Program-made: the position numbers and the translations under genes | In this document: piece by piece, positions 11,095-23,876 of the stretch | Position numbering within the stretch: the first letter of the stretch is position 1 | How the letters are laid out: every line of letters starts with the position of its first letter | The notes under the pieces: generated by a model | What the model saw: the letters and a program-made list of their open reading frames with translations, nothing else | Database searches by the model: none | Told to the model about the DNA's origin: nothing | Origin: Gammaproteobacteria bacterium | GTDB lineage: Bacteria; Pseudomonadota; Gammaproteobacteria; Arenicellales; UBA868 | Length of the DNA stretch: 62,681 nucleotides | Reading direction: 5' to 3' | Assembly (NCBI GenBank): GCA_014239255.1 | Contig: JAAZZE010000006.1 | Location: forward strand, 1-62,681

Positions 11095-11874
11095 TCAATC
11101 CTGCCTGACTGTCTCAAGAAGTTCGGCGAGCGTGCCACCCAGCAGATCCAATTGCGCAGGGCTCGACAGTCGATGATCGCCATCCTTGAGTAATTGCACA
11201 CGTACATCGTGCGCTTCCAGGGCCTTGGACAAGCGCAATGCCGTGCGCCAGGGCACCTCAGTATCAGCAAAGCCCTGCAGTAACCTAACCGGCGCGCTGA
11301 TCCTGACAGGCCCGTCCAATAGGCACTGTGTCTCGCCGTCACTGATCAGTGCCTCAGTGATCGGATACCCCTCGGGGTCATAATCACTTCTGAGGTGCAC
11401 GCGGCCCGTGGTTATAAGTTCCTCGCGCTGCGCATCGTCCATTTCCTGTGATACTAGGTCCCGGGTGAAATCAGGTGCTGCGGCAACACCCAGTAGACCT
11501 TTGACCTGCTGACCCAACGCTAACGCGACGTGCAGCATGATCCAACCACCCATGCTGGAGCCAACTAGAACGCAGGGGCCTGCTGCCTGGGCACGGATGA
11601 CATCCAGCGCATCGGTTGTCCAACGACTGATAGTGCCCTCCTCAAACTGCCCTTCGGACAACCCGTGGCCCGAATAGTCAAAACGTAAGAAGGCCTGGCT
11701 TCTTTTGGTACACCACTCAGACAGATACTGTGCCTTGGTACCGTCCATATCCGATCGAAAACCTCCTAGAAACACCACCCGGGGCAATTGACCCGCTAAA
11801 ACCCGGACTGCCAGAGATGCCCCTTGAGTGCCGCTGACCCATATTGTTTTCTCACTCAAACCTGCACTCCCCAT
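11095..11874 (-). CDS. Alpha/beta hydrolase (ABHD10-like thioesterase/esterase family)
   Basis: A 259-residue serine hydrolase. The nucleophile elbow is V-G-S-S-M-G-G-W with S107 as likely nucleophile; the oxyanion/His-Gly-type loop is FLGGFRSDMDGTKA, FDYSGHGLSEG follows, and the acid and histidine are probably in ADTEVPWR and KDGDHRLS. The layout (about 260 residues, GSSMGGW, small cap) resembles ABHD10-type acyl-protein thioesterases and related bacterial hydrolases. The substrate is unknown. It is transcribed divergently from the leucine-catabolism operon across a 273-bp region, which may allow shared control, but that is only inference. Confidence 0.82.
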   Translation of the reverse strand: MGSAGLSEKTIWVSGTQGASLAVRVLAGQLPRVVFLGGFRSDMDGTKAQYLSEWCTKRSQAFLRFDYSGHGLSEGQFEEGTISRWTTDALDVIRAQAAGPCVLVGSSMGGWIMLHVALALGQQVKGLLGVAAAPDFTRDLVSQEMDDAQREELITTGRVHLRSDYDPEGYPITEALISDGETQCLLDGPVRISAPVRLLQGFADTEVPWRTALRLSKALEAHDVRVQLLKDGDHRLSSPAQLDLLGGTLAELLETVRQD

Positions 11875-12078
11875 CTATCGTGTAATTCATTACTTATGTG
11901 ATTATCGGGCTTGTCATAAATTATGTAATTCAGTTGTCCTTAGCTTAGGTAAATCGGCCATTTCATGTTGTTCATGCATAGTATTGCTCGCCAGTTACTT
12001 AAAATCAGCCTCTTTTTAAAGCTCAAAATCTTTGCGTTAGGCCAATTCAGGCAATCCGGTTTCGGTCGAGTTAAACCT

Positions 12079-12108
12079 TAGGTTGACGTTTACGTAAACG
12101 TCAACCTA
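12079..12108. promoter_or_regulatory. Perfect 30-bp palindromic operator upstream of the leucine catabolism operon
   Basis: Bases 12079-12093 are the exact reverse complement of 12094-12108; the core reads GACGTTTACGTAAACGTC. It lies between and over the -35 and -10 elements of the liuA promoter. That placement is what MerR-family regulators need, and LiuR, the MerR-family regulator of leucine/isovalerate genes in proteobacteria, binds ACGT-rich palindromes of this kind (family knowledge). No liuR gene is in the window, so the protein that binds is inferred. Confidence 0.8.
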
Positions 12109-12112
12109 GAAT
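12083..12112 (+). promoter_or_regulatory. Promoter of the isovaleryl-CoA dehydrogenase operon
   Basis: TTGACG (-35, 12083-12088) and TAGAAT (-10, 12107-12112) are separated by 18 bp, longer than the optimum 17 as is usual for MerR-activated promoters. The predicted start is near 12119, giving a leader of about 29 nt before the ATG at 12148. Confidence 0.6.
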
Positions 12113-12147
12113 TACCCCTAAGCAGTCTGATAGCAACGGTTTCAAGC

Positions 12148-13326
12148 ATGACGATCTCATCCTATTCCACCCTCGGACTCAATTTTGATCTGGGGGAAAC
12201 AGCGCAACTGCTGCGCCAAACAGTCGCCGAGTTCGCTGCCCGTGAAATTGCGCCGCGCGCGCAAGCGATAGACCGCGATAACACTTTCCCCCCAGACCTT
12301 TGGGCTAAGTTCGGCGACCTGGGCTTACTCGGAATTACAGTTGACCCTGAGTTTGGCGGCGTCGGAATGGGCTATCTTGAGCACACCATAGCCATGGAAG
12401 AGATCAGTCGCGCTTGCGGTGCTGTTGGTCTGTCCTATGGCGCCCACTCCAACCTGTGCATCAACCAGATACACCGTAACGGGTCGCTAGACCAACAAGC
12501 ACGCTTCCTCCCTGACCTGATCAGCGGCAAATGTGTAGGCGCACTGGCTATGAGTGAGCATAGCGCAGGGTCCGACGTCGTCAGCATGCGTCTGCGGGCA
12601 GATAAGCATGGCGATCATTACGTGCTGAACGGCACCAAGATGTGGATCACGAACGGACCAGATGCTGACACGCTAGTGGTGTACGCCAAAACCAACCTTA
12701 AAGCAGGAGCTCACGGCATCACCGCATTCATTATCGAGCGCGGTTTTGCCGGTTTTTCGACCTCTCCCAAGCTGGACAAACTAGGAATGCGTGGCTCGAA
12801 CACCTGCGAGCTGATATTTCAGGACTGTGAGGTTCCTGGCGACAATATACTAGGGCTCGAAAATGCCGGAGTAGCTGTGCTGATGAGTGGGCTGGACTAT
12901 GAGCGTGTGGTTCTTTCCGGGGGGCCACTTGGCCTGATGCAAGCCTGCCTTGATATCGTTTTGCCGTACGTACACGAGCGTCATCAATTCGGCCAGCCTA
13001 TTGGTACATTTCAACTGGTACAAGCCAAACTGGCCGATATGTACACTACACTGGATGCCTGCCGTGCCTACGTCTACGCAGTGGCCCGCGCTTGTGACCG
13101 CAAAGAAACCACACGCAAAGATGCGGCCGGCGCAATCCTGTACAGTGCCGAGCGGGCGACTCAGATGGCCCTGGACGCGATCCAATTGCTTGGCGCTTCA
13201 GGCTATGTCAATGAACAGGCTGCCGGCCGCCTGCTGCGAGATGCAAAGCTTTATGAAATTGGTGCTGGTACCAGTGAAATGCGACGGATGTTGATTGGCC
13301 GCGAACTCTTTAACGAAAGTAACTGA
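12148..13326 (+). CDS. liuA: Isovaleryl-CoA dehydrogenase
   Basis: A 392-residue FAD-dependent acyl-CoA dehydrogenase that oxidises isovaleryl-CoA to 3-methylcrotonyl-CoA in leucine breakdown. Signatures are [54 protein letters not shown] and [13 protein letters not shown]. The catalytic base is probably E252 in [12 protein letters not shown], the position characteristic of isovaleryl-CoA dehydrogenases rather than the C-terminal position used by most short-chain family members. It is first in the operon, 13 bp before the thiolase gene, and behind the palindromic operator at 12079-12108. Confidence 0.94.
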
Positions 13327-13339
13327 AGGAAGACTCATC

Positions 13340-14527
13340 ATGCACGATGATCCAATTGTTATTACCGGTGCTGCCCGAACCCCAATGGGCAGTTTCCAGG
13401 GCAGTCTAACAGGGCTCAAAGCCCCCGAACTGGGCGCCGCAGCTATTACCGCAGCGATCGAACATTCAGGTAGTACACCGAATTCAGTGGATGAAGTGCT
13501 GATGGGATGCGTACTGCCGGCCGGACAACGTCAGGCCCCTGCCCGCCAGGCAGCACTCGGCGCTGGGCTGCCGCTGGCCATACCATGCACCACCATCAAC
13601 AAGATGTGTGGCTCAGGCATGAAAGCTGCCATGCTGGGCCACGATATCATTCGTGCCGGTTCCGGTCGCGTCACTGTGACCGGCGGACTGGAGAGCATGA
13701 GCAATGCCCCTTACTTACTGCCTAAAGCCCGGGCAGGTTACCGACTCGGTAATGGCGAACTGCTGGATCATATGTTTGTCGACGGACTTGAAGATGCCTA
13801 CGAACCCGGCAAACTGATGGGCCATTATGCGGAAGACTGCGCTGAACGTTATGGCTTTAGCCGTAAAGACCAGGACGACTTTGCTATCGAGTCGCTTACC
13901 CGGGCCAAGGAAGCAACAGACAGTGGTGCGTTTCGCGATGAAATCACCCCGGTCTCGATTGTTGGACGCAAAGAGACCGTGACAGTCGAATTCGATGAAC
14001 AACCGCTCAATGCCAATATCGAGAAGATTCCAAATCTGAAACCGGCCTTTCGTCAAGATGGCACCGTGACCCCTGCCAACTCAAGCTCAATCTCAGATGG
14101 CGGCGCCGCTCTGGTCATGATGCGGTTATCGGATGCCGAAAAAGGGGGCCACGTACCGCTGGCACGTGTGCTCGGGCACGCCAGTTTTGCGGATAAGCCT
14201 GGCTGGTTTACTACCGCACCTGTATTCGCCATGCGCAAACTACTCGATTCAATCGACTGGAGTGTCGATTCGGTTGACCTTTTTGAAGTGAATGAAGCTT
14301 TCGCCGTAGTAGCGATGGCAGCTATGCGTGACCTCGCCATACCGCACGAAAAGTTAAACATCCATGGTGGCGCCTGCGCGCTGGGACATCCAGTCGGCGC
14401 CTCGGGCGCTCGCATCATCGTGACCTTGCTTCATGCCATGGCGCGATACGACCTGCGTCGAGGTGTAGCTTCATTGTGTATCGGTGGTGGCGAAGCCACC
14501 GCGATGGCGTTCGAACGTATTAGCTGA
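13340..14527 (+). CDS. Acetyl-CoA acetyltransferase (thiolase)
   Basis: A 395-residue thiolase. The nucleophilic cysteine is C90 in INKMCGSGMKA; the other active-site parts are VNEAFAVVAMA, GGACALGHPVGASGARI and CIGGGEATAMAFE, all intact. In this setting it most likely cleaves acetoacetyl-CoA formed at the end of leucine degradation. ATG 13340 was chosen over an upstream in-frame start inside liuA because HDDPIVITGAARTP is the usual family N-terminus and GAAGG lies just upstream. It is followed by a broken isomerase gene, then liuB. Confidence 0.92.
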   Translation: MHDDPIVITGAARTPMGSFQGSLTGLKAPELGAAAITAAIEHSGSTPNSVDEVLMGCVLPAGQRQAPARQAALGAGLPLAIPCTTINKMCGSGMKAAMLGHDIIRAGSGRVTVTGGLESMSNAPYLLPKARAGYRLGNGELLDHMFVDGLEDAYEPGKLMGHYAEDCAERYGFSRKDQDDFAIESLTRAKEATDSGAFRDEITPVSIVGRKETVTVEFDEQPLNANIEKIPNLKPAFRQDGTVTPANSSSISDGGAALVMMRLSDAEKGGHVPLARVLGHASFADKPGWFTTAPVFAMRKLLDSIDWSVDSVDLFEVNEAFAVVAMAAMRDLAIPHEKLNIHGGACALGHPVGASGARIIVTLLHAMARYDLRRGVASLCIGGGEATAMAFERIS

Positions 14528-14552
14528 TCGACCTCCCAATAGTAAGATCGCC

Positions 14553-14825
14553 ATGACTACATCCATCGAGTTTTTCTTTCAGTCCTCATCGCCCTATGGC
14601 TCTGCTGCCAGTGAGCGGATTGACAAACTGGCTGGCTACATGCCAAAACATATTAAAGCTGGCATCCAACCCAAGAGCCTCAGCCGCCAATTGCGCGCGG
14701 TCAATAGCGAGGTGCGCGTCCAAGGCGTTTTTGTCTCGCCAGCCCTGTTCATAAACCAGGAGCCATCCTGGGGCGTCGATCACTCTGGGCATCTTGACCA
14801 GCAGCTATCGCGTGGCAGCTGGTAA
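14553..14825 (+). pseudogene. Internally deleted DsbA-like 2-hydroxychromene-2-carboxylate isomerase-type gene
   Basis: The 90-codon frame starts with TTSIEFFFQSSSPYGSAASE, which resembles the N-terminus of HCCA isomerase/kappa-class GST-like proteins (family pattern IEFYFDFSSPY). It closes with [18 protein letters not shown], which resembles their C-terminus (GVFGxPxFxVdGexFWGqDRl). Intact members have about 200 residues, so roughly 110 central residues are gone or unrecognisable, and the DF before SSPY is replaced by QS. It sits in the leucine operon between thiolase and liuB. I read it as a deletion remnant kept in frame; a shortened functional protein is possible but unlikely. Confidence 0.65.
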
Positions 14826-14844
14826 CACTAATTGGACTGATCAC

Positions 14845-16455
14845 ATGAGTGCGTTCGCCAGTCGGATAGATACCACTACAACTGACTTTGCTGCAAACCG
14901 AAAGGTGATGCTGCAAAAAACGGCAGCCCTTTGCAAAGTCACTGACCAGATTGCCCAGGGCGGAAGTAAAAAGGCACGCCAGCGTCACGCCGCTCGAGGC
15001 AAGTTACTCGCACGCGAGCGAATCGAAGGACTGCTCGACCCAGGCAGCACTTTTCTCGAATTCTCACAACTCGCCGGCTGGAAGTTATACGAAGACGAAG
15101 TGCCTTGTGGGGGCATTGTCACAGGTATCGGCCAGATTCACGGACGACCCTGCATAGTAGTCGTCAACGATGCCACAGTGAAGGGAGGCGCCTACTACCC
15201 GGTTACGGTCAAAAAACACCTTCGAGCCCAGGCTATCGCCGAACAAAATCGGCTGCCCTGCATTTATTTGGTCGACTCCGGCGGGGCCTACCTACCCCAT
15301 CAGGATGAGGTATTCCCCGACCGGGAACATTTTGGCCGAATATTCTTCAATCAGGCAAATATGTCTGCTGCAGGAATTCCCCAGATTTCAGTGGTCATGG
15401 GGTCATGCACCGCTGGGGGCGCTTATGTACCAGCCATGTCAGACCAGGCTATTATCGTTCGCCGGCAAGGAACTATTTTTCTCGGTGGGCCACCACTGGT
15501 AAAAGCGGCGACTGGCGAGGAAGTCAGTGCCGAGGCGCTCGGCGGCGCTGATGTGCATACTCGTATCTCGGGAGTAGCCGACTATCTCGCCAATGACGAC
15601 CGTCATGCGCTGGAGCTAACACGGGGTATCGTCTCTCATCTGAACCGCCCACCTCCCGCGGTCTTTCCCTGTGAGCCTAAGCCTGTCGACCCCATCCATG
15701 AGGTGGAAGAGCTTTACGGCATTATTCCAACTGATCCACGCCTACCATTTGATGCTCGTGAAATTATCTGTCGCATTGTCGACGCCGGCGAGTTCGACGA
15801 GTTCAAGGCGCGTTATGGCAAAACTCTGGTCTGCGGTTTTGCCCGGATTGGCGGCTACCCCATCGGCATTATTGCCAACAATGGGATTCTCTTTTCGGAA
15901 TCTGCACTCAAGGGCGCCCATTTCATCGAACTGTGCAGTCAACGCAAGATTCCACTGCTGTTTTTGCAAAATATTACCGGCTTCATGGTTGGTAGCCGCT
16001 ATGAGCATGGAGGCATCGCCCGCGATGGTGCCAAACTGGTAACGGCGGTTGCTTGTAGCCGTGTACCCAAACTCACAGTAATCATCGGCGGCAGTTTTGG
16101 CGCTGGCAATTACGGCATGTGCGGCCGTGCCTATGACCCCCGATTCTTGTGGATGTGGCCCAACGCACGTATCTCCGTGATGGGGGGAGATACCGCAGCA
16201 CAGGTATTGGCACAAGTGCGCCGCGATAGCGCCCAGCAGACTGGTCAGGACTGGTCCGCCGAGGCTGAGGCACAATTCCGTTCTGCCATCGCCAGTCAAT
16301 ATGAGCACCAAGGAAGCCCGTTTTATGCCAGTGCTCGCCTTTGGGATGACGGGATCATCGACCCAGCTGATACCCGCCGGGTACTATCCCTAGCACTGGC
16401 AACTGTTCATAATGCGCCGATCGAAGATAGTCATTTCGGCGTATTTCGAATGTAA
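14845..16455 (+). CDS. liuB: Methylcrotonyl-CoA carboxylase, carboxyltransferase (beta) subunit
   Basis: A 536-residue acyl-CoA carboxyltransferase that moves the carboxyl group from biotin to 3-methylcrotonyl-CoA in leucine breakdown. MCC-beta features include [60 protein letters not shown], and the C-terminal [20 protein letters not shown] and [21 protein letters not shown] 14845 gives the family N-terminus; in-frame upstream sequence overlaps the remnant gene. The biotin-carrying alpha subunit (liuD), the hydratase (liuC) and HMG-CoA lyase (liuE) that usually follow are absent; ispG comes next. Confidence 0.93.
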
Positions 16456-16495
16456 GCCCGCGAGCAGCACCCTCTCCTGCTCCCGGTAAATCAGT

Positions 16496-17761
16496 ATGGA
16501 CGAGATTCTCATTCCCAGAAAACTGAACCACACTGTCAACGTGGGCGGTATACGAATTGGCGGCAATGCCCCGGTGGTGGTGCAGTCGATGACCAACACC
16601 GATACTGCAAACGTCGACGCCACAACCTGTCAGATTTTGGAACTAGCCGAAGCAGGTTCCGAAATTGTACGCATTACAGTCGACACAGAGGCCGCTGCGC
16701 GGGCCGTGCCCAAGATCCACCATCGCTTACGCTCGACAGGATGCGACGTTCCACTGGTAGGTGATTTTCACTATAACGGTCACACCTTGCTGCGTGATGT
16801 TAGCGACTGTGCGGATGCGTTGGACAAATACCGAATCAACCCAGGCAATGTCGGTAAGGGTCAAAAACGGGATGTACGTTTTTGTCAGATGATTGAACAA
16901 GCCTGCCGTCGTAACAAACCAGTACGGATCGGTGTCAACTGGGGCTCACTCGACCAGCAACTCCTGGCACAAAAACTTGATGAGAACGCAGCGGCCAAGC
17001 AGCCGCGCTCCCTGGAGGCAATCACCCGGGAAGCGCTGATCGATTCGGCATTAAGCAGCGCGGCACTGGCGCAGCGGGAAGGCCTTGATTCAAACCAGAT
17101 TGTTCTCTCGGCCAAGGTCAGCCGCGTATCTGACCTTATTCAGGTTTATCGCGAACTGTCGCGCCGCTCCGACCTGGCACTGCATTTGGGTCTGACTGAG
17201 GCAGGCATGGGAGACAAGGGTATCGTTTCGTCAACCGCCGCCTTGGCAATTCTGATGCACGAAGGCATTGGCGACACGATCCGGGTATCGCTTACGCCAC
17301 AACCCGGCGAGAGTCGCACCCGGGAGGTTCGGGTTGCCCAGACGATACTGCAGTCCCTTGGGTTACGCAGTTTTTCGCCACAGGTGATTGCCTGTCCCGG
17401 CTGCGGTCGAACCACTAGCGATTTTTTTCAACACCTGGCAAGTGAGGTACAAGACCACTTGCAGGCACGCATGCCTCACTGGCGGGCGCGTTACCCCGGT
17501 GTAGAGTCATTATCTGTCGCAGTGATGGGCTGTATAGTCAATGGGCCCGGGGAGAGTCGTCATGCCGATATCGGCATTAGCCTGCCTGGCACCGGTGAAC
17601 AACCTACGGCACCAGTGTACCAGGATGGGAAAAAAGTACTTACTTTGCGAGGGAGCGATATCGCAGTACAGTTTATCGCTCTGGTCGAAAACTATGTCCA
17701 AGATCGATTTGACTCCCCTACTAGATCAACTCGGAAAGTCGACAAAATCACCAAAAGGTAA
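16496..17761 (+). CDS. ispG: 4-hydroxy-3-methylbut-2-en-1-yl diphosphate synthase
   Basis: A 421-residue 4Fe-4S enzyme of the MEP pathway that reduces methylerythritol cyclodiphosphate to HMBPP. The N-terminal TIM-barrel part shows [19 protein letters not shown] and [20 protein letters not shown] with [11 protein letters not shown]. The Fe-S cysteines are in [15 protein letters not shown] and [18 protein letters not shown]. The last roughly 20 residues are a weakly conserved basic tail. It lies 40 bp after liuB but belongs to another pathway, so it probably has its own expression signals. Confidence 0.95.
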
Positions 17762-21743: not shown

Positions 21744-22525
21744 GAGTCAGATTCTCCTTCGCCGATCGCAGGTCCGTCGGTCATGCCAGCGAGCACCTCA
21801 GCCACATGAAAAACCCTGACCGGAGCGCCTTCACGGCGCAGGCGACCGGCGATATTGAGCAGACAGCCTAGATCTCCACCGAGCAAGGTATCAACCCCAC
21901 TGTGACCGACATTGGCGCATTTATCACTGACCATCCGGGTGGAAATATCAGGATACTTGACACTGAATAGCCCTCCGAAACCACAACAAACGTTGTTCTC
22001 GTTCATTTCCTTGAGTTCCAAGCCCACGACACTGGCCAGCAGTTGCCGCGGCTGATCGTGGATACCGAGTTCCCGTAACCCTGAACACGAATCATGGTAA
22101 CTGCAAACACCGTTGTAGGTCGCTTCCACCTGCTGCAACTCCATGACCTCGACCAGGAAGCTTGTCAGCTCCCAGGTTTTTGCCGCTAATGCGCGAGCTC
22201 GCCCCGCCCAAAGTGCATCATTACGGAAAAGCTCGGGGTACTTGTGGCATATAGTGTCAACACAGGAGCCTGAAGGGGCGATGACGTAATCATCCTGGGC
22301 AAAGGTTTTGATCACCGTTTTTGCGATTGCGATTGTGCTGGCACTGTCCCCACTGTTGAGCGCAGGCTGCCCGCAACAGGTCTGAGCACGTGGCACTCGG
22401 ACTGTGCAGCCAGCATGCTCCAGCAACGCCACTGCTGCAAAACCAATCTGGGGGCGAACAAGATCGGCCAGGCAGGTAACAAACAGTCCAACCTGGGCTG
22501 ATGTTTTTATTTGATCGGAATTCAT
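21740..22525 (-). CDS. lutA: LutA-type (Fe-S)-binding protein
   Basis: A 261-residue protein with two cysteine-rich CCG domains: QTCCGQPALNSGD in the first and NNVCCGFGGLFSVKYPDIST in the second, each paired with a downstream cysteine (SGSCVDTICHKYPE; YHDSCSGLREL). It matches LutA/YkgE, the first gene of the L-lactate oxidation operon; related domains occur in glycolate oxidase GlcF and heterodisulfide reductase. ATG 22525 gives MNSDQIKTSAQVGLFVTCL; an in-frame ATG at 22564 is less likely. The operon runs divergently from the MFS transporter. Confidence 0.92.
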   Translation of the reverse strand: MNSDQIKTSAQVGLFVTCLADLVRPQIGFAAVALLEHAGCTVRVPRAQTCCGQPALNSGDSASTIAIAKTVIKTFAQDDYVIAPSGSCVDTICHKYPELFRNDALWAGRARALAAKTWELTSFLVEVMELQQVEATYNGVCSYHDSCSGLRELGIHDQPRQLLASVVGLELKEMNENNVCCGFGGLFSVKYPDISTRMVSDKCANVGHSGVDTLLGGDLGCLLNIAGRLRREGAPVRVFHVAEVLAGMTDGPAIGEGESDS

Positions 22526-22595
22526 TGATAACTTATACCGTTGAGTCGGTCGGCACTGTACCATTCACATCATTCTTTCACCATCACTAGGATGT

Positions 22596-23876
22596 TTGAG
22601 CAACAATAATCAATACACAAAACCCCTGCTATCCGTTTTTGCGATGGACAGACCAACAAAACCCGTGAACCTAAAAAATATCAGAAACCATCCCGAGATC
22701 CTGCTGTTGCTGATGGCGGGTGCCGTGCCGCTGAGCTTCGCCACGTGGCAAGCACTATTAAACAACTTTGCAATCGAGCGTGCCGCATTCACCGGGATTG
22801 AGATCGGTGTGCTGCAAAGCCTTCGGGAGATACCCGGATTCCTGGCCTTTACCGTGGTTTTCCTGCTTTTTTTACTTCGAGAACAATCCATTGCGTTGAT
22901 CTCGTTGGCGCTGCTAGGGGTGGGCACTTTGATTACCGGATTTTTCCCAAATGTCATGGGTCTATACATCACTACGGTCATCATGTCTGTGGGGTTCCAC
23001 TACTATGAGACCATCCAGACCTCTTTGTCGCTACAGTGGTTGGATAAGGACAAAGCGCCTGAGGTGCTAGGGCGCATCATTGCGGTGGGCGCTTTAACCT
23101 CGATTGTAACCTTCGGCATGATCTGGCTGGCGTTTGATCTGGCTGACCTAGGCTTCACTGCAGTCTATGTGCTCGGTGGTGCTGCCACGGTACTGATCGC
23201 TCTAATCTGTGCTGTGTCTTTTCCACAGTTCCCCGTCAAGATTCGCCAGCACCGGCACATGGTGCTGCGCAAGAGATACTGGCTGTACTACGCCCTGACC
23301 TTCCTGTCTGGCGCGCGGAGGCAGATATTTATTGTCTTTGCCGGTTTTCTAATGGTCGAAAAGTTCGGCTACAATGTCGCCGCCATCTCTGTCCTGTTCC
23401 TGATCAACGCCATATTGAATATGCTGTTTGCCGCACGCATTGGGCGACTGATCGGCATTGTAGGGGAAAGAGCGGCATTGGTTTTTGAGTACACTGGCTT
23501 GGTGATCGTGTTCATCGCCTACGCTTTTGTCAACAATGCAGAACTGGCAGCCGGGTTGTATATCGTCGACCATTTCTTTTTTGCCTTGGCAATTGCTATC
23601 AAGACTTATTTTCAAAAAATTGCCGATCCGGCTGACTTTGCTTCGAGTGCCGGGGTCGCTTTCACGATCAACCATATCGCGGCGGTGGTCTTGCCGGCAG
23701 TACTGGGGATACTCTGGCTGAACTCACCGACAGCGGTATTTCTGGTCGGCGCTATCCTGGCCGGACTATCACTATCGTTGTCTCTAAATATCCCCCTGAA
23801 ACCCGCCTACGGCAATGAGGTCATCATCGGGCAATGGGGCATCACCGGCACATACCGGGCTTCGGTCGAGAAATAG
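22596..23876 (+). CDS. MFS transporter
   Basis: A 12-helix major facilitator protein of about 410-426 residues with two six-helix halves joined by a basic loop (KIRQHRHMVLRKRYW). It begins at TTG 22596 or, more likely given the N-terminal hydrophobicity pattern, ATG 22644 (MDRPTKPVNLKN). The substrate cannot be read from sequence. Its divergent placement 70 bp from lutA suggests uptake of a 2-hydroxy acid such as lactate or glycolate, though it does not look like the usual LctP permease. Its stop lies 9 bp from the end of the convergent RuBisCO operon. Confidence 0.82.
   Translation: MSNNNQYTKPLLSVFAMDRPTKPVNLKNIRNHPEILLLLMAGAVPLSFATWQALLNNFAIERAAFTGIEIGVLQSLREIPGFLAFTVVFLLFLLREQSIALISLALLGVGTLITGFFPNVMGLYITTVIMSVGFHYYETIQTSLSLQWLDKDKAPEVLGRIIAVGALTSIVTFGMIWLAFDLADLGFTAVYVLGGAATVLIALICAVSFPQFPVKIRQHRHMVLRKRYWLYYALTFLSGARRQIFIVFAGFLMVEKFGYNVAAISVLFLINAILNMLFAARIGRLIGIVGERAALVFEYTGLVIVFIAYAFVNNAELAAGLYIVDHFFFALAIAIKTYFQKIADPADFASSAGVAFTINHIAAVVLPAVLGILWLNSPTAVFLVGAILAGLSLSLSLNIPLKPAYGNEVIIGQWGITGTYRASVEK

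Follow-up and report, generated by a model that had tools for sequence, protein, structure and literature searches.

A perfect palindrome at the liuA promoter of an uncultured gammaproteobacterium is a predicted LiuR operator with a second copy between liuR and icmF

In the 62,681-nt stretch of DNA analysed here (the window), a perfect palindrome overlaps the promoter of liuA. Judged by its sequence, it is an operator of the MerR-family regulator LiuR, an already known kind of switch for the leucine-breakdown operon. Very probably, LiuR blocks this promoter until it is relieved by a product of the leucine pathway, and a second site between liuR and icmF would work likewise. Blocking of the promoter, rather than twisting it open, is the most likely mode of action.

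The palindrome comprises 30 bp (12079-12108; TAGGTTGACGTTTAC/GTAAACGTCAACCTA) and consists of two 15-base arms with zero mismatches and no loop, as an earlier note on this DNA had described it. An arm of 15 bases is the longest in the window, whereas the longest arms measured 7-11 in 200 first-order Markov sequences simulated to match the window in length and composition, which places the palindrome far beyond chance. A second genomic copy and the conservation within the family delimit an inner operator core of 22 bp (12083-12104) with the conserved sequence TTGACGTTTACGTAAACGTCAA; the outer 4 bp on each side are not conserved in the family. The palindrome is located about 40 bp upstream of liuA, the start codon of which lies at 12148. 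A promoter scan detected 2 promoter-like sites in 11850-12300 with 0.6 expected, and assigned to liuA a forward-strand promoter (12083-12112) with a -35 hexamer TTGACG (12083-12088), a spacer of 18 bp, and a -10 hexamer TAGAAT (12107-12112), sharing 10 of 12 letters with the consensus. The -10 hexamer recurs as TA....T in relatives. The 18-bp-spaced promoter proposed earlier is therefore present, but its hexamers do not straddle the palindrome as had been stated: the -35 hexamer lies within the left arm and the -10 hexamer begins on the final two bases of the right arm. Read directly, the dyad centre (12093.5) precedes the midpoint of the two hexamers (12097.5) by 4 bp.

A perfect inverted repeat might also be read as an RNA hairpin or a terminator, but the chance of this is negligible here. 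The repeat leaves no room for a loop, its position upstream of the -10 hexamer puts it outside the liuA transcript, and the absence of terminator-like sites from 11850-12300 led us to reject this identity.

A LiuR-type regulator encoded elsewhere had been predicted, and a genome scan for further copies of the palindrome had been proposed; the genome, available as an 89% complete assembly of 2.68 Mb in 235 contigs, holds both. At up to 3 mismatches, the 22-bp core has one further match, with 2 mismatches, on contig C66 (22953-22974), while the reversed pattern, used as a control at the same threshold, has zero matches in this genome. Three more places in the genome match a 16-bp core with 3 mismatches; they are treated as chance matches because 15 per strand turned up with the reversed control. 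The C66 operator sits between a MerR-family gene on the minus strand (22517-22933), coding for a protein of 138 aa, and the divergent gene icmF. In this protein (P0001), the domains PF13411 and PF09278 both score over their cut-offs, and it is 47-67% identical to the LiuR-type proteins of nine loci with liuA and/or icmF; among the NCBIfam models, none named LiuR was matched. On the basis of sequence and of the gene order in relatives, the gene is classified as a liuR orthologue. The product of the neighbouring gene is a fused isobutyryl-CoA mutase (IcmF; NF045497, 1817.6 bits with a cut-off of 1500). In an alignment with 4xc6, a fused isobutyryl-CoA mutase of known structure, it (L010 7986-11282) shows the Phe and Gln residues which we take to set the specificity for isobutyryl-CoA.

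Three MerR_1 matches were found in the genome, and one paralogue deserves consideration as the chief ligand of the site, in which case liuA would be coupled to fatty-acid activation. This LiuR-like protein of contig C171 shows 46% identity to the C66 LiuR over 120 aa with a similar DNA-binding region, is 41-50% identical to the LiuR orthologues compared, and is encoded (L005 1474-1882) directly behind a fadD-like acyl-CoA ligase gene. This protein could bind the site as well, but we regard a leading role for it as highly improbable, since the best motif match in its 1,882-base locus has 9 mismatches in 22 positions, and since the motif goes together with liuR, whose orthologues adjoin liuA in relatives.

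The association of the motif with both genes extends through the family. Of 61 genomes searched, our own among them, 54 contain the 22-bp core at a tolerance of 3 mismatches. None of the 7 others belongs to the family, every member of which (33/33, own genome included) has at least one match. In 29 of the 33 family genomes, the core precedes liuA by about 11-87 bp; no site adjacent to liuA was seen in G008, G014, G016, and G025. Before liuR, mostly with a divergent icmF, it is present in at least 27 of the 33, a count which comprises the loci read, with G001, G004, and G018 carrying a further match of the same type; G012, G026, and G031 have the liuA site only. In other families, liuR is located between the operator and liuA, and icmF is divergent (L025, L027, L028, L029, L030), for example with 64% identity for LiuR and 74% for LiuA in L028. 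By this gene order, the C66 gene is connected to liuA.

A third copy of the core was observed in three genus members, and not in our own genome, before a gene for another acyl-CoA dehydrogenase (L191 1501-1522, L195, L196). The encoded protein has 27% identity to LiuA, and a -10 hexamer TATAAT follows at 18 bp.

The arrangement at liuA had been interpreted as the geometry of MerR-family activation, and several features are in keeping with this interpretation. In such a scheme, LiuR would be a classical MerR activator that, with its ligand bound, untwists the spacer and so opens to polymerase a promoter that is poor by itself. In the regulator, an N-terminal DNA-binding domain of the MerR type is present; CueR and MerR are its closest relatives of solved structure, and the operator overlaps the core promoter, as is also the case in MerR/CueR/SoxR-type activation by members of the same protein family. 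MerR-type activation, however, uses an overlong spacer of 19-20 bp, with the operator between the hexamers. A set of 22 different liuA promoters, of which 21 come from the family and one from another family, has TA....T at a distance of 18 bp in 21 cases and of 17 bp in the remaining one; in the 20 distinct icmF promoters of the family, the distance is always 17 bp. Of 9 icmF promoters from other families, 4 show the pattern at 17 bp, 2 at 18 bp, and 3 at neither distance; at 19 or 20 bp, it was found in none of the liuA and icmF promoters compared. The -35 hexamer inside the core and the dyad centre off the midpoint likewise differ from an activator promoter, and hexamers that share 10 of 12 letters with the consensus do not appear to need an activator. 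At mer, a spacer of 19 bp is given as the length under MerR control, and derivatives with 17-18 bp are described as constitutive and almost unaffected by MerR in the part of PMC11049809 available to us. The accessible sections of two further papers characterize LiuR as a MerR-family repressor (PMC3223726) and ascribe repression to the LiuR of Pseudomonas aeruginosa (PMC8871633), the latter also naming a putative protein that antagonises LiuR. Taken together, the spacers of 17-18 bp, the mer spacer data, and the published role of LiuR favour steric repression. On the spacer statistics, the activator geometry was rejected as first choice, and we consider it unlikely, while a spacer 1 bp above the optimum may allow for some distortion-based activation.

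Repression would then proceed as follows. LiuR dimers would occupy the 22-bp core together with the liuA -35 hexamer inside it, and would keep RNA polymerase off the normally spaced sigma-70 promoter of liuA, the thiolase gene, and liuB. When an intermediate of leucine breakdown builds up, LiuR would be released and the promoter would fire unaided. At the C66 site, the promoter scan identified TTGACG-17-TAAAAT towards icmF and TTTACG-17-TATACT towards liuR, and the -35 hexamers of both divergent promoters fall within the operator. LiuR bound to this common operator would cover both -35 hexamers and in this way repress its own gene together with isobutyryl-CoA mutase. As a side observation, only about 6 bases separate the end of the predicted liuR -10 hexamer TATACT (L002 1481-1493, C66) from the listed ATG. 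The liuR message may therefore lack a leader, or an internal Met may serve as the start of translation.

Control of the whole block by LiuR had been predicted, and this prediction holds in part: the LiuR-type gene on C66 carries the motif in its own promoter and the liuA site is conserved, but the block is confined to liuA, the thiolase gene, and liuB, perhaps with ispG, and leaves liuC and liuD outside. The genes from liuA to ispG are located on the plus strand. The liuA product (12148-13326) is an isovaleryl-CoA dehydrogenase (best PDB match 4o5m, 8.2e-187). It is followed by a gene for an acetyl-CoA acetyltransferase-type thiolase (PRK06954, 641.5 bits, under the cut-off of 687), the coordinates of which (13295-14527) are those of the listed open reading frame, with a true start that may be further in. 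The next gene (14794-16455) encodes the carboxyltransferase subunit of an acyl-CoA carboxylase (PF01039, 528.8 bits) and is by position liuB, the beta subunit of 3-methylcrotonyl-CoA carboxylase. In genome G010, a DsbA-like gene (L079 5968-6570) was noticed between the thiolase gene and liuB, and other members of the genus have gaps of comparable size.

Behind liuB, at a distance of 40 bp, lies ispG (16496-17761), the sole copy found in the genome. The promoter scan found no promoter-like site in 16200-16560, around the liuB-ispG junction, and ispG is perhaps part of the liu transcript. In genera g1, g2, and g5, it likewise comes after the liu genes where the loci are long enough (L078, L079, L087, L085, L090).

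Neither liuC nor liuD is present in the operon, including its gaps 14528-14793 and 16456-16495. Two other genera of the family, g5 (L085) and g6 (L084), have both genes after liuB; in g6 the pair was identified as such, and in g5 it was assigned by position and a LiuD match. A gene for hydroxymethylglutaryl-CoA lyase is found elsewhere in our genome, at the edge of contig C153. The best match of a LiuD search in the genome is an alpha subunit of the propionyl-CoA-carboxylase type (PCC_BT domain). The BT_MCC_alpha domain was not found in this genome, which counts for little because it was detected in only 2 of 14 controls and over the cut-off in none.

On the other side of the operator, a divergent alpha/beta hydrolase gene (11095-11874, minus strand) is a candidate for operator control only. 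The palindrome might be an operator common to liuA and the divergent hydrolase and xanthine phosphoribosyltransferase-like genes, a reading which would not conflict with control of liuA by LiuR. In most family genomes, the hydrolase gene keeps its divergent place beside the operator, and TTGACG occurs on both strands of the palindrome, yet an opposite-strand -10 pattern at 17 or 18 bp exists in only 9 of the 22 promoters, so that promoter signals do not support joint control of the hydrolase. In genus g5 (L090), moreover, the hydrolase gene is more than 5 kb away and the operator still precedes liuA. We hence consider a shared operator rather improbable and bidirectional control of the hydrolase weakly supported.

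The link between site and regulator is also visible in named genomes. Recurrence of the core itself served here as a stand-in for the published LiuR motif (ILV box). Of 80 liuA loci from the named collection, 47 have an upstream site with 5 mismatches or fewer, compared with none of the 80 for the reversed pattern. A site with up to 6 mismatches occurs in 36 of 38 loci with a LiuR gene versus 14 of 42 without, an association whose p-value is too favourable since the 6-mismatch cut was picked after the distribution had been seen and the loci are not independent, many being from related Pseudomonas. The closest named locus belongs to a metagenome-assembled genome labelled Acidiferrobacteraceae (LiuA 97%).

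These features agree with the LiuR regulon for branched-chain amino acid utilization in Proteobacteria (Kazakov et al. 2009, RegPrecise), for which the available portions of PMC3223726 and PMC5343134 likewise report a MerR-family regulator, control of leucine degradation, and a palindromic site at the liuA promoter as well as at the regulator's own promoter. In our genome, an orthologous MerR regulator, a site at its promoter, and a site at a leucine/isovalerate catabolism operon were all found. Differences concern the size of the regulon, with two strong sites only, one of them common to liuR and icmF, and the absence of liuC and liuD from the liu operon; the average regulon given in the accessible text of PMC5343134 is larger, at 13.7 target genes per genome. 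Pseudomonas species carry orthologues of LiuA and LiuR (P. aeruginosa liuR/liuABCDE, PA2016 and PA2015), with about 53-58% identity for LiuR, and their sites upstream of liuA mostly have 3-6 mismatches to our core. As far as PMC8871633 was available, repression is described for P. aeruginosa as well, with liuR as the first gene of the liu cluster, whereas here it is located on another contig beside icmF. Among the papers found by our searches, we saw no description of a LiuR regulon in this lineage, and one search of the library at our disposal for LiuR together with icmF found no paper.

The two operators differ in symmetry. The liuA operators have perfect arms of 11-18 bases (n=29), while every liuR/icmF operator of the family is lopsided with a perfect arm of only 7 bases (27/27), its icmF-side half reading TTTCCG or similar on its own strand instead of TTGACG. 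A more far-reaching proposal, which we put forward tentatively and hold to be possible rather than probable, is that the LiuR regulon of this family has shrunk to two main switches which jointly set the traffic of branched acyl-CoA, the perfect operator of the leucine operon and the lopsided one that liuR shares with the gene of the B12-dependent isobutyryl-CoA mutase. The operator kept broken on its icmF half in 27 of 27 sequences would then release icmF and liuR first, and the sole ispG behind liuB would let leucine catabolism drive an isoprenoid step.

Our results extend the known LiuR regulon to an uncultured gammaproteobacterial family and tie icmF to LiuR. Further features of the system are icmF at the second site, the conserved lopsided operator, an operon without liuC and liuD, and the sole ispG behind liuB. 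The conserved promoter spacing indicates that the MerR-family protein most probably represses here, and it advises caution against taking every MerR site for an activator site.
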